Assembly (NCBI GenBank): GCA_003142475.1
Contig: PLMK01000053.1
Span: 1 to 33,195 of the forward strand
Source of the DNA: Ignavibacteriota bacterium
GTDB lineage: Bacteria > Bacteroidota > Ignavibacteria > UBA10030
DNA length: 33,195 nucleotides
Reading direction: 5' to 3'
The notes beneath the pieces were generated by a model. The model ran no database searches and was not told the origin of the DNA. It saw only the letters and a list, made by a program, of their open reading frames with translations. The position numbers and the translations under genes were made by a program. Shown in pieces: positions 29,574 to 33,195 of this stretch (its first letter is position 1; every line of letters starts with the position of its first letter).

Positions 29574-30740
29574 CTATACCGCTTGTCCCGCCGCCCATCC
29601 GGATGACCACGCCCACTGAAAATTGAAACCTCCAAGCCAACCGGTAACATCAATCACTTCTCCAATGAAATAAAGTCCCGTTACTTTCTTCGATTCCAAG
29701 GTCTTTGAAGAAAGCTCGTCAGTATCGATGCCGCCGACCGTCACTTCGGCTTTTGGGAAGCCTTCGGTTCCTGATGGTGTAATCTGCCAGTCACTTAAAT
29801 GTCGAGCAAGTTCTTTTAGTTCAATAAGTGAATATTGATTCATCGGATTTGAACCACCCCGTAGTTCCAGCCAGACTTTTACAAAACGCGAAGGAAGAAA
29901 TTGCTCCAGAATAGTTGCGAGCTGTTTCTTGCTCGGATGATCTTCTTTCAACGCATCAAGAATATTAATACCGGGAAGAAGGTTGACAGAAATGGAATCT
30001 CCGGGATTCCAGTAAGATGAAATCTGTAAGATGGCTGGACCGCTTAAACCCCGATGCGTTAAAAGCATATTTTCACGAAAGGATATTTTATTGCATCGAA
30101 CTTCTGCATCAATCGAAATGCCGCTGAGATCTTTGAAGCCCTCAAAATCCTTAGAATGAAAGGTGAGTGGCACGAGACCTGGTTTTGGTGAAACGATATT
30201 GATGCCGAATTGGTCAGCAATCCTGAGACCGTAATTTGTTGCGCCCAACTTTTGAATCGAGAGTCCGCCGGTAGCGATAACAAGTGAAGAAGCTTCCAGT
30301 GGCATGTGATCTGTTAATAGATGAAAAGATGTGTCTTTTTCGATGCGGAGTATATGTATGCAAGTCTGGATTTCAACATTCGCTTTTCGGCATTCTTCCA
30401 ATAACATTTGAATAATTTGTTCTGCACTGCCATCACAAAATAATTGTCCATGTTCTCTTTCGTGATACTGAATGCTGTATTTTTCTATTAGTGCGATAAA
30501 ATTTGCTGGAGCAAACCTGGCAAGTGCTGATTTACAGAAGTGAGGATTCTGTGAGATGAAGTTCGACGCATTTACACTTCTGTTTGTGAAGTTGCACCGA
30601 CCACCACCGGAGATGCGAATTTTCTCGCCGATCTTCTTATTATGATCTAAAACAAGGACGGAGCGTCCTCGCTTGCCAGCCTCGATAGCGCACATCAATC
30701 CTGCTGCGCCTGCACCAATAATAATGACGTCTGTTTTCAT
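29574..30740 (-). CDS. HI0933/YhiN-family FAD-dependent oxidoreductase
   Basis: A 388-residue flavoprotein of the HI0933 (BaiN/YhiN) family, whose function is mostly unknown. FAD-binding motif DVIIIGAGAAGLMCAIEAGKRG at the N-terminus in two parts, then the family signature KKIGEKIRISGGGRCNFTN in pieces, LVIATGG, THRGLSGPAILQISSYW and the C-terminal LYFIGEVIDVTGWLGGFNFQWAWSSG. The start is placed at ATG 30740 (MKTDVIIIGAG); an ATG at 30842 would add 34 unrelated residues before the FAD motif. It runs convergent to the M16 gene and marks the last typical chromosomal gene before the accessory right end. Confidence 0.9.
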   Translation of the reverse strand: MKTDVIIIGAGAAGLMCAIEAGKRGRSVLVLDHNKKIGEKIRISGGGRCNFTNRSVNASNFISQNPHFCKSALARFAPANFIALIEKYSIQYHEREHGQLFCDGSAEQIIQMLLEECRKANVEIQTCIHILRIEKDTSFHLLTDHMPLEASSLVIATGGLSIQKLGATNYGLRIADQFGINIVSPKPGLVPLTFHSKDFEGFKDLSGISIDAEVRCNKISFRENMLLTHRGLSGPAILQISSYWNPGDSISVNLLPGINILDALKEDHPSKKQLATILEQFLPSRFVKVWLELRGGSNPMNQYSLIELKELARHLSDWQITPSGTEGFPKAEVTVGGIDTDELSSKTLESKKVTGLYFIGEVIDVTGWLGGFNFQWAWSSGWAAGQAV

Positions 30741-30950
30741 CAGTGCTTTCAATATCGATGAAATTCTTTTATCCAGCAAATCAAATGGCTGCAGACAAGC
30801 AAAGAGTTTGGTATTGCATCTCAGGAAAAGCGTTGTTACCATAACGGTGGTTTTGATGTACGCAGTAAGTTGTACCCGTTGGGAGTTCGGGATTCAGCTT
30901 TACCTCCGTTAGAAATTCAAAAAAAGAATAAAAGTTCATAAAGGACTTCA

Positions 30951-30962
30951 TCTAGCGGGGAG
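30951..30962 (+). repeat. Left copy of 12-bp inverted repeat
   Basis: TCTAGCGGGGAG, exact reverse complement of CTCCCCGCTAGA at 33140-33151. It is followed closely by GTTAC (30968-30972). Its partner lies within the attC-like sequence after the last gene. Confidence 0.5.
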
Positions 30963-30985
30963 AGTGCGTTACAAGAAATCTCGAG

Positions 30986-31027
30986 AAGCCTGCAAGGGGA
31001 AATGAATTTTCCGGTTGGAGGCTTTTT
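30986..31027 (+). terminator. Terminator-like hairpin without an upstream gene
   Basis: AAGCCT (30986-30991) pairs with AGGCTT (31019-31024). The inner part pairs as CAA/TTG and GGAAA/TTTCC around a five-base loop, with a G-G mismatch and a 2x2 internal loop. Five T (31023-31027) follow on the plus strand. No plus-strand gene lies in the 240 bases before it. Confidence 0.5.
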
Positions 31028-31106
31028 CTATTAATAACAAACCAAAGAATACTCTCAATATATCGTCCTCTTTTAAAAAATACAGACTATGTTTATCTAA
31101 TTACAT

Positions 31107-31113
31107 GTTAGGG
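31107..31113 (+). other. GTTAGG-type heptamer, candidate cassette boundary 1
   Basis: GTTAGGG, one base from the integron R' consensus GTTRRRY, 30 bases before the start of the next gene. Read together with the heptamers at 31753, 32147 and 33127. Confidence 0.35.
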
Positions 31114-31143
31114 CGCACTTACAATTTGAACATTTGGTGATTA

Positions 31144-31734
31144 ATGCCAATTCGGAATAAAATACCTATTGCAATTCTTATCAGTACTCTCATGGTTACT
31201 GCCTCAATTGGCTATGCTTATCAAGTTGATACAACTGCCTCCGAAGATATTAAACCTAAGGAAGTTCAACCCAGTTTGTATAGATTGAGTATTGGCATTG
31301 GTGTGGGGACATTAGACGATGGAGAAGCAGCTTCCTTTACCTATAGCTTTAATGATCAGTGTATATTACTCCGATTCGTCCAAACAAGCGAATTCAACAT
31401 GTTTGGTCCAAAACCAGATGAGAGCATTTGGGACATCAGTGTGTTGTATGGTTGTTCTGCACGATGGGGTAATTGGTACAGTTCAGTAGGAACTGGTATT
31501 GGGTTAGTCCACTCAGTTCAGCGGGGAAAACTTTTACGGAGGTCCGATGAGTTCCTTGGATCAGATGAATATGAAAGCATCGAGCGTTCGGTAGTAGGCT
31601 TGTCTATTCAAGTTGAAATATCTGAGGCACCATTTCCATTTATGGGTTTGGCCATCATTGGGTTTGCAAATATCAATGGTGTTCGCAGTTATGCTGGATT
31701 AACGCTTTGTTTGCAATTTGGTAAACTCCGTTAA
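31144..31734 (+). CDS. Putative secreted beta-barrel protein, unknown function
   Basis: A 196-residue protein I do not recognise. Residues 1-25 look like a signal peptide (basic MPIRNK, hydrophobic IPIAILISTLMVTASIG, then YA before YQVD). The mature part alternates hydrophobic and polar residues in segments such as YRLSIGIGVGTL, SFTYSFNDQCILLRFVQ, WYSSVGTGIGLVHSV and SYAGLTLCLQFGKLR, with many glycines, as in small outer membrane barrels. The end is a plausible last strand. No strong ribosome binding site is seen. It lies between GTTAGGG (31107) and GCCTAAC (31753), as a cassette gene would. Confidence 0.65.
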   Translation: MPIRNKIPIAILISTLMVTASIGYAYQVDTTASEDIKPKEVQPSLYRLSIGIGVGTLDDGEAASFTYSFNDQCILLRFVQTSEFNMFGPKPDESIWDISVLYGCSARWGNWYSSVGTGIGLVHSVQRGKLLRRSDEFLGSDEYESIERSVVGLSIQVEISEAPFPFMGLAIIGFANINGVRSYAGLTLCLQFGKLR

Positions 31735-31752
31735 CGGTATTTCAGTAGTGCT

Positions 31753-31759
31753 GCCTAAC
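31753..31759 (+). other. GCCTAAC heptamer (R''-like)
   Basis: Exact match to the integron R'' consensus RYYYAAC, 18 bases after the stop codon of the preceding gene, and exact reverse complement of GTTAGGC at 32147-32153. Confidence 0.4.
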
Positions 31760-31902
31760 CAAATATTCATAGAAAAAGCTCCTTGAAAAAATGTGAGTGA
31801 ATGACATTGGCAGCTTCCTTGTGATCTTGACTCGTGCGTTATACGGGATTCCACGGGAATATGTATGGATCTCAAAGTACTGTTCAGATTCGAGAGAAGT
31901 AG

Positions 31903-31991
31903 AAAGTCATAGGGAGAAGTATCTGGTTAACGATATTCTTCTGATGGGAAGATATCTAGATGCTCCTATCCTCTCCTTCTCCTATGACTTT
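31903..31991. repeat. Long nested imperfect hairpin with single bulged bases
   Basis: AAAGTCATAGGGAGAAG (31903-31919) pairs with CTTCTCCTATGACTTT (31976-31991): 16 pairs with one extra G on the left arm. Nested inside, GATATTCTTC (31932-31941) pairs with GAAGATATC (31948-31956): nine pairs with one extra T on the left arm and a six-base loop. Bulged bases on one arm only are the shape expected of attC single-strand folds, but an RNA structure is also possible. Confidence 0.65.
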
Positions 31992-32146
31992 GCCAATGAT
32001 TAAGGATACGAAAATTATTGTCACAGACTCAACATACGAGGCGCTCAAGCTCGGTTTGCAACGATTCAGTACAAGATTGAAAGTGTAGTGAATGAACTAT
32101 AGAAGAGGAAACACGCTTCGCGTGATACAATTACAGGGCTCCGCCT

Positions 32147-32153
32147 GTTAGGC
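32147..32153 (+). other. GTTAGGC heptamer (R'-like), candidate cassette boundary 2
   Basis: Exact match to the R' consensus GTTRRRY, preceded by CCGCCT and 37 bases before the ATG of the next gene. The upstream CGCCTGTTAGG is close to the reverse complement of CTAACCAGGCG found after the last gene. Confidence 0.45.
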
Positions 32154-32190
32154 TGCAATAATATTTATCATTTAAGAAAGAGTATTGATA

Positions 32191-33117
32191 ATGGAAATAA
32201 TTAATTATGGCCAGAAATTAGAAAAAGTAATTGTTAATAACCAAAATCCGTATGATCTGTATGCATCTAACGACAAAGACTCTACAAATCTTATATATTA
32301 TAAATTAGTTCCCAATAATAACCCTCTCGGGGTTTTAGTGTTGCTTCCAGACGGGGGTGAAAGTATAGAAGATGTAATGAAACAAATTTCATTGCACAAA
32401 CTTGCTGTTGAAAAAGATATATTGGTAATTATTCCATTAATTAATGGGGGAACTAATACTCATTATCCAGAACATAAATTTCTCGACACCATTTTTCAAC
32501 AAATAGTTAAACAATATAGAATTCCCAAAAATAAGTTTATTCTTGGAGGATTTTCATCAGGAGCAATGGTGTCATTAACATATACAGAAAGAGCTAAAAT
32601 GAATGTCGATAGTACATTTATTAACCCTTTAGCCGTTTTTGGAATTGACCCACCTCTTGATCATACGCATATATGGAACCGATGTAAAAGAGATATTGAA
32701 AGATACTTTTCTACACCTGCAGTTCAGGAAGGCAGATGGATCATGAATAGTTACGTTAAAGAATTCGGAGGTTCGCCTGAAGAATTTCCAGAAAATTATA
32801 TAAAGTATTCTGTCTATTCCCATAGCGAAAAAGATGGAGGCAATGCACAGTATTTAAAAAACACACCTATTCGATTATACACGGAGCCCGGCATTATTTG
32901 GCAGATGGAAAATATGCACCGCGACTTATATGACATAAATTGTACTGACATCTCCGCAATGATAAATTTGTTACAATTAAAAGGGAATAAAGAGGCGGAA
33001 CTAATTGTAACACAAGACAAAGGCATAAGATTAAATGGACGAAAACACCCACATTCATGGTCTATCATGGACTCTGAAGATTGTTTAATCTGGATTTTTA
33101 AACAACTAAGAAAATGA
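32191..33117 (+). CDS. Putative alpha/beta serine hydrolase, specificity unknown
   Basis: A 308-residue cytosolic-looking protein (no signal peptide), notably rich in N, I, K and Y and more AT-rich than the core genes. Residues 46-54 (LGVLVLLPDGG) resemble a hydrolase first strand and oxyanion loop, and ILGGFSSGAMVSLTY holds a nucleophile elbow GFSSG with S122. A histidine pair near the C-terminus (KHPHSW, H286/H288) could supply the base; the acid may be in YTEPG or SEKDGG. The fold recalls dienelactone hydrolase or esterase D relatives, but I cannot assign a family. The ATG at 32191 is preferred to a TTG at 32185. The gene is followed after nine bases by AGCTAAC. Confidence 0.7.
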   Translation: MEIINYGQKLEKVIVNNQNPYDLYASNDKDSTNLIYYKLVPNNNPLGVLVLLPDGGESIEDVMKQISLHKLAVEKDILVIIPLINGGTNTHYPEHKFLDTIFQQIVKQYRIPKNKFILGGFSSGAMVSLTYTERAKMNVDSTFINPLAVFGIDPPLDHTHIWNRCKRDIERYFSTPAVQEGRWIMNSYVKEFGGSPEEFPENYIKYSVYSHSEKDGGNAQYLKNTPIRLYTEPGIIWQMENMHRDLYDINCTDISAMINLLQLKGNKEAELIVTQDKGIRLNGRKHPHSWSIMDSEDCLIWIFKQLRK

Positions 33118-33126
33118 AAATATTGT

Positions 33127-33188
33127 AGCTAACCAGGCGCTCCCCGCTAGAAAACATCAGGGCAGGCAAGCTGACAGCCGGAGGCCTG
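33127..33188 (+). other. attC-like imperfect inverted repeat after the last gene
   Basis: AGCTAAC (33127-33133), one base off RYYYAAC, is followed at once by CAGGCGCTCC (33134-33143), which pairs with GGAGGCCTG (33180-33188) in nine base pairs with one extra G on the left arm. The expected closing GTTRRRY would fall beyond the window, so the site cannot be completed. Confidence 0.4.
33140..33151 (-). repeat. Right copy of 12-bp inverted repeat
   Basis: CTCCCCGCTAGA, reverse complement of TCTAGCGGGGAG at 30951-30962. It lies inside the attC-like sequence following the hydrolase gene. Confidence 0.5.
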
Positions 33189-33195
33189 AGAATGA

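Follow-up and report, generated by a model that had tools for sequence, protein, structure and literature searches.

The two rightmost genes of a contig from an Ignavibacteriota bacterium (assembly GCA_003142475.1, contig PLMK01000053.1) raise the question of whether they are integron cassettes and, if so, what kind of attachment site holds them there. The contig was analyzed over its whole length of 33,195 nt (the window, also C66) and belongs to a genome of 3.58 Mb in 81 contigs (G000). A T9SS sorting domain hints at a Bacteroidota-type or neighbouring phylum. An earlier note, made from the window alone, had read the heptamers around both genes as cassette boundaries, possibly at the start of a sedentary chromosomal array. 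By comparing six congeneric species (G000–G005) and a member of another genus of the same family (G018), we find that positions 31056–33195 are probably the visible part of a cassette cluster at an attI-like site without its own integrase gene (intI), one of 12 dispersed orphan sites counted in the genome, which besides has a complete integron whose array is large. These sites would be used in trans by the integrase (IntI). The analysis is based on sequence, and the binding and cutting of attI by IntI are predictions.

Two cassettes at the end of the window

The four heptamers could be read directly, at the positions and distances previously claimed for them: GTTAGGG (31107–31113) lies 30 bases 5′ of the ATG at 31144, GCCTAAC (31753–31759) 18 bases 3′ of the stop at 31734, GTTAGGC (32147–32153) 37 bases 5′ of the ATG at 32191, and AGCTAAC (33127–33133) 9 bases 3′ of the stop at 33117. 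By count they are ordinary, with five matches to GTTRGGC in the window and 4.0 expected from shuffles; heptamers alone are not above chance, and we discarded their counts as evidence for cassettes. Gene order and direction in both units fit one gene plus one same-strand attC site, with one attC interrupted and the other cut. The circular junctions of both units scored 12, a value reached by 0.6% of random GTTA/TAAC pairs, and one cross pair scored 13.

Further attC sites were found throughout the genome (contigs named without a genome number are those of G000). A 20-base attC arm pattern, allowing at most three mismatches, matched G000 71 times and the reversed control not once, and 35 of the matches fall on C61, C62, C78 and C49. 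With an 18-base arm pattern there were 78 matches, many in dense arrays, and again none in the control. The attC family of this genome is an imperfect palindrome (R″-L″...L′-R′) with compensating changes. Of 210 L″/L′ cells in the 35 sites with both arms, 199 were Watson–Crick, compared with a maximum of 192 in 5000 permutations (the better of two registers was taken, for observed and permuted sites alike), and an alignment of 10 sites contained four pairs changed on both sides, which none of 500 shuffles equalled. As would be expected of circularising units, cassette starts complement the flank of their own attC (mean 6.6 of 8 versus 4.0 when permuted; 0 of 5000 permutations; 62 array cassettes from G000 and G004). 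A covariance model built from 10 array sites (R1) gave 121 matches in 39 mostly attC-bearing loci and a single match in 24 other loci.

The earlier note had seen no integrase in view and had advised a search for one and for further attC sites. There is indeed no TIGR02249 match, and thus no complete integron, on C66, and both kinds of element exist in the genome. The only G000 gene passing the TIGR02249 cut-off (446 bits versus 265) is intI at C49:5624–6562. Its product is full length, the match spanning residues 7–318 of 319, and the best solved structure is 2a3v (286 bits over the whole chain), named site-specific recombinase IntI4, from Vibrio cholerae. On C49, cassettes lie left of intI on the opposite strand, the layout of a canonical integron. 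The last 35 codons of this intI are duplicated about 260 bases downstream of the intact gene (L016, 6828–6932; 97% identical residues). IntI above the cut-off was present in 17 of the 61 genomes searched, own genome included, and in 16 of the 60 relatives.

In the window, the cluster begins with a type-C attI-like site on the forward strand (31056–31110, left limit approximate; the types are set out below). Its 22-base core (31082–31103) has three mismatches to the core pattern, the stretch that aligns with G001:C141 continues for about 26 bases to the left of the core, and the crossover GTTA is at 31107–31110. The heptamer at 31107 is off the attC consensus, as had been remarked, and it is the crossover of an attI-like site followed by the first bases of cassette 1, not the end of an attC; this is why no attC precedes it. 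The gene of cassette 1 (31144–31734, forward) encodes 196 amino acids with a signal-peptide-like start, judged by eye, and no Pfam match up to E=1. The protein is 52% identical to that of a cassette gene on G004:C6 that has an attC arm on both sides, and the cassette start GTTAGGGC is common to the window and to the 5′ side of this homologue.

The site behind cassette 1 (31753–32153, forward) had been judged too long for an attC. The length stands, and we read it as an attC (R″ 31753–31759, L″ GGCGCT 32040–32045, R′ 32147–32153) in which about 275 bases (about 31762–32036) have been inserted between the R″ and L″ boxes. The end of the insert and the next attC arm recur at G004:C1:16761–16944 with a shorter form of the insert, which there occupies an attC-like place. 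The insert also holds a long inverted repeat, GTCATAGG...CCTATGAC (31895–32010), with an ordinary predicted fold (z −1.3).

Cassette 2 (gene 32191–33117, forward) encodes a probable alpha/beta hydrolase of 308 amino acids; the Abhydrolase_2 match (E 0.0013, 19 bits) is below the gathering cut-off of 23. The protein is 30% identical over 300 residues to that of a cassette gene at C77:88183, which adjoins another orphan attI. Only the 5′ part of its attC is visible (33127–33195, forward), as the contig stops at 33195 inside the site; this part is 87% identical to the attC at C3:8673–8739 and 85–87% to attC sites at C35 and C77. More generally, 32069–32160 and 33129–33194 are 85–94% identical to further stretches of G000. 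It is this context that gives the heptamers their significance and supports both units as cassettes. Clusters of attC sites lacking integron-integrases (CALINs) are defined by at least two attC and no intI nearby; of the two attC in the window, one is interrupted and the other cut, and the clusters on C11 and C39 have at least two. The integrase in the genome, the attC family, the attI-like left edge and the cassette homologues elsewhere all bear out the proposal of chromosomal integron cassettes at the start of a cluster. One correction concerns the array: that adjoining intI is on C49, and the window cluster begins at a separate orphan attI-like site.

attI-like sites without a local integrase

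We distinguished three types of attI. Types A and B adjoin intact intI in the genus (A on G000:C49 and G001:C29, B on G001:C56 and G004:C7), and type C is the type with the 22-base core. With at most three mismatches, this core matched G000 eight times, and all eight matches are the left edge of a cassette cluster, on the strand of the cassettes; seven have none or one mismatch and the window's has three. Held out of a profile made from 20 other sites, the window site scored 39.6 bits, and reversed loci gave no match of at least 12 bits. We identify the orphan left edges as attI because they are in register with the attI adjoining intI in G018. The G018 sequence aligns with them ungapped, including a second upstream repeat and a palindrome (by eye), and scored 28.9 bits when held out of the profile. 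The sites are also direct 5′ neighbours of the first cassette, with their crossover in G^TTR, as is required of an attI. Types A and B occur as orphans too, A at C59 and G004:C8:66 kb and B at C6 and C24.

Altogether we counted 30 orphan attI sites in the six species, 12 of them in G000 (nine type C, two type B and one type A). Of 33 core matches in the six genomes, 24 were taken and nine, all with two or three mismatches, were left out (G001:C54 and C116; G003:C29, C60 and C65; G002:C129; G005:C93; G004:C1:138012 and C1:199657); six sites were added from other searches (G000:C43, C6, C24 and C59; G004:C6 and C8:66k). An attC arm lies downstream on the same strand, within 3.2 kb or the shorter available stretch, at 27 of the 30 sites, compared with one site for an arm on the opposite strand and one for an arm upstream; the 3.2 kb upstream of the window site contain none. 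Where the arm could be read, at 14 of the orphan sites, the start of the first cassette complements its own attC (mean 6.9 of 8, 10 perfect, 0 of 20000 permutations). Among 32 genomes of the family, the type-C core with at most two mismatches was confined to the six of the genus (24 matches, three of them uncounted; three in the reversed control).

Two of these sites stand out. An attI at C43:164149 (L131, 6150; 18.2 bits) resembles a deletion between its two direct repeats, with a cassette still behind it. On C24 (L173, 2–727), a different tyrosine-recombinase-like gene (Phage_int_SAM_1, 43 bits) that runs off the contig occupies the place where intI would be, oriented divergently from the orphan type-B attI at a distance of about 430 bases.

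Integrase loss, copied modules and exchanged cassettes

The eight pattern-found G000 sites, the window's included, showed no similarity to intI within 2.5 kb upstream (1.7 kb at C35). Truncated antisense intI stubs lie directly upstream of attI at G001:C92, G003:C117, G004:C15, G005:C41 and G004:C8:65.7k, and stubs were recognized by DNA similarity at G003:C55 and C90. Since several sites keep such a stub, each orphan site appears to be either a former integron or a copied module that has no intI. Four G003 sites (C117, C55 and two on C90) have one and the same stub junction with similar sequence to its left, which argues that an intI-less module was copied. We had also considered truncation of intI by recombination at a G^TT inside the gene, and dropped it: the breakpoints cluster in one part of the gene, but their flanks are without the expected core. 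On G003:C90 (L185, 5176 and 8437), the two attI-like sites have the same direction and stand 3.3 kb apart, with no attC arm in the 3.2 kb after the first.

Among related orphan sites, what lies to the left of the crossover is conserved, and the cassettes to its right differ. G001:C92 and G003:C117 share a 3.7-kb host flank at 84.6% and, by alignment, the same intI truncation; right of the crossover their likeness is at the shuffled level. Similarly, G003:C55 and one of the C90 sites are 99% identical over the 324 bases ending at the crossover, and the next 300 bases are at the shuffled level. A third, orthologous pair, C3 and G004:C9, has 2 kb of host flank at 82%. The cassettes themselves have close relatives at other loci. 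The orphan site on G004:C9 has a first cassette that matches a cassette of the G004:C7 main array at 93.5% over 601 bases, a C11 cassette and one on G001:C50 agree at 99.2% over 1053 bases (host flanks 74–79%), and a C39 cassette is 88% identical to one behind the type-A orphan on G004:C8. These identities across loci indicate that orphan sites, main arrays and different species exchange cassettes.

How could this come about? The orphan sites probably go back to integrons that lost intI or retained no more than a stub of it, and at least one intI-less module was then copied within a genome (G003). An IntI encoded elsewhere would recombine the folded attC of circular cassettes with the G^TTA of an orphan attI, giving the chromosome several cassette entry points instead of one. 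Because only sequence was examined, we call it likely, and not more, that IntI made elsewhere in the cell still uses the orphan sites in trans. For the broader proposal of a distributed integron, in which one integrase would serve a dozen or more dispersed attI sites and intI-less attI modules would multiply independently, we consider the chances even. If it is true, cassettes could enter and be expressed beside many host genes, not behind a single promoter.

Several observations weigh against this interpretation. The attC covariance-model search suggested in the earlier note detected no attC in the window: R1 finds neither of the two sites and gives just two weak matches elsewhere in the window (8–9 bits, E 0.5–0.9), likely because one site is interrupted and the other cut by the contig end. 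By profile score, the attI-like site of the window is number 20 among the 26 of type C, one of the weaker copies, and the reversed core pattern gives three chance matches in G000 at the three-mismatch tolerance. The intI of G018, on which the attI identification is anchored, carries one in-frame TGA. Three of the 30 orphan sites are without an attC arm within reach, and a core scan of 22 G000 loci found no attI for the clusters C55, C68, C8, C74 (which has an intI stub), C3 (left end) and C43:174051, a scan that was not exhaustive, since it missed the known C35 site too. The C3/G004:C9 pair is the weaker evidence, because its identity right of the crossover, 0.58, is slightly above the shuffled maximum of 0.55, and the C11 cluster differs from G001 by an 8.2-kb variable block, not by a clean insertion of attI plus cassettes. 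Furthermore, the exchanges at most loci may predate the loss of the local integrase, and G003 has orphan sites, yet no full IntI was found in it.

The main alternative is that the clusters are passive relics: each would be what is left of a once complete integron in which all cassette changes were made by the local intI before this gene decayed, leaving sites that are unused today. We think this unlikely, although it would account for the truncated intI stubs directly upstream of attI at several sites. G001:C92 and G003:C117 have the same truncation and different cassettes, the single stub junction at four G003 sites implies that the module multiplied after intI had been lost, and one cassette is common to an orphan site and a main array. 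In addition, seven of the eight pattern-found cores in G000 have kept none or one mismatch to the pattern although no intI similarity lies within 1.7–2.5 kb upstream. That every change took place under an intact local intI is opposed by the shared truncation with different cassettes at one orthologous pair and by the copied G003 module at other sites.

Off-target insertion, in which IntI would have put cassettes at ordinary G^TT sites (attG) with the shared left edge being incidental, is much less probable. It is a known route, described for attG in the available text of PMC12444791, and counts among the three CALIN origins named in the excerpted text of PMC8618304. The left edges, however, have in common the 22-base core and bases upstream of it, all aligned in the register of an attI that adjoins intI, and three attI types recur as orphans. 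This explanation is thereby contradicted for the 12 orphan sites counted in G000 (types A, B and C). We had ourselves considered the shared edge as a bare attG and dropped the idea after the comparison with G018; off-target insertion may still apply to the clusters without a recognized attI. It is, if anything, even more improbable that assembly or binning split one large array and that the dispersal is only apparent. G000 is in 81 contigs, several of which end inside attC sites (L141, L172, L174 and L177), but the clusters on C11, C35, C39, C43, C54 and C77 lie inside contigs of 70–211 kb, and G004, in about 20 contigs, has orphan sites on contigs of 344–732 kb. Finally, chance heptamers around two ordinary genes are hardly credible: this would agree with the heptamer counts in the window and with the silence of the attC model there, and is contradicted by the genome-wide attC similarity, the gene homologues in other cassettes and the attI-like left edge.

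Known systems and neighbouring features

A sedentary chromosomal integron, of which the Vibrio superintegron is an example, likewise has a TIGR02249 IntI, an attI, long attC sites that are alike within the genome, and one cassette direction; it differs in that G000 has cassettes not just in the main array but also behind 12 attI-like sites that have no intI of their own. The dispersed Xanthomonas CALINs (PMC12444791, in its available text) likewise consist of cassette groups that lie apart from intI in various parts of the chromosome, whereas 12 of the clusters in G000 have an attI-like site of definite type at their start; the term attI appears in five places of that text, none of which names an attI at a dispersed CALIN. 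The same text describes degenerate integrons at the Xanthomonas ilvD locus, which are similar in that the integron is kept while most intI have frameshifts, stops or large deletions. The present genus differs from these: a genome has many such loci, attI is of three types, and different loci have cassettes in common. Complex class 1 integrons such as SGI1 (PMC7056807, in part) are also reported to give a genome a second attI with cassettes; in contrast, the two attI there lie within one 15-kb element and not, as here, a dozen over the chromosome. Insertion at attG equally yields cassettes outside the platform, but the target here is attI-like and not a bare G^TT. In the literature on attI, CALINs, attG and orphan, secondary, additional or multiple attI, and on integrons in lineages of this kind, as far as the accessible texts extend, we found no description of chromosome-dispersed attI sites. 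As IntegronFinder detects no attI outside class 1, according to the accessible text of PMC9024848, an orphan attI could be missed elsewhere.

CALINs are common, and this genus supplies cases that bear on their origin. The origins proposed so far are off-target insertion, loss of intI and rearrangement (PMC8618304, in the text available). In 12 of the 18 dispersed G000 clusters examined, the left edge can be read as an attI of definite type, and CALIN origins therefore become separable locus by locus. The data suggest a fourth route, the spread of intI-less attI modules that keep exchanging cassettes. If the sites are indeed used in trans, a model with a single platform and a single point of entry does not cover the whole system, and detection tools blind to attI outside class 1 would overlook such use.

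Left of the cluster, the host gene at 29574–30739 (reverse strand) encodes an HI0933-like flavoprotein of the aminoacetone oxidase family (TIGR00275, 412 bits), which is kept in G001, G003, G004 and G005. Conservation of the window with G004 does not extend past the start region of this gene, the homology to G004:C16 ending at 30813. Between this gene and the attI-like site lies a multi-copy intergenic element (30812–31036, forward). It is predicted to fold strongly as RNA (z −2.95 and −3.64), and its end resembles a terminator. Copies, some of them partial, occur on C46 (two), C55, G004:C1 and G003:C30, and the element stands before an attI-like site both in the window and at G004:C1. Rfam gave no match in the element, and over the window nothing at the gathering score, with a single sub-threshold match at 32048–32159. 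The element may be an undescribed small RNA.

Some cassettes of the genome carry genes of a defence-like character, as seen in a defence-family scan that covered five proteins. TIR-domain proteins resembling ThsB or SAVED-TIR defence effectors are encoded in cassettes on C11 (L129, 6036–6746) and at position 2253 of C49, and a cassette of the C61 array encodes an HNH domain like that of type IV restriction enzymes.

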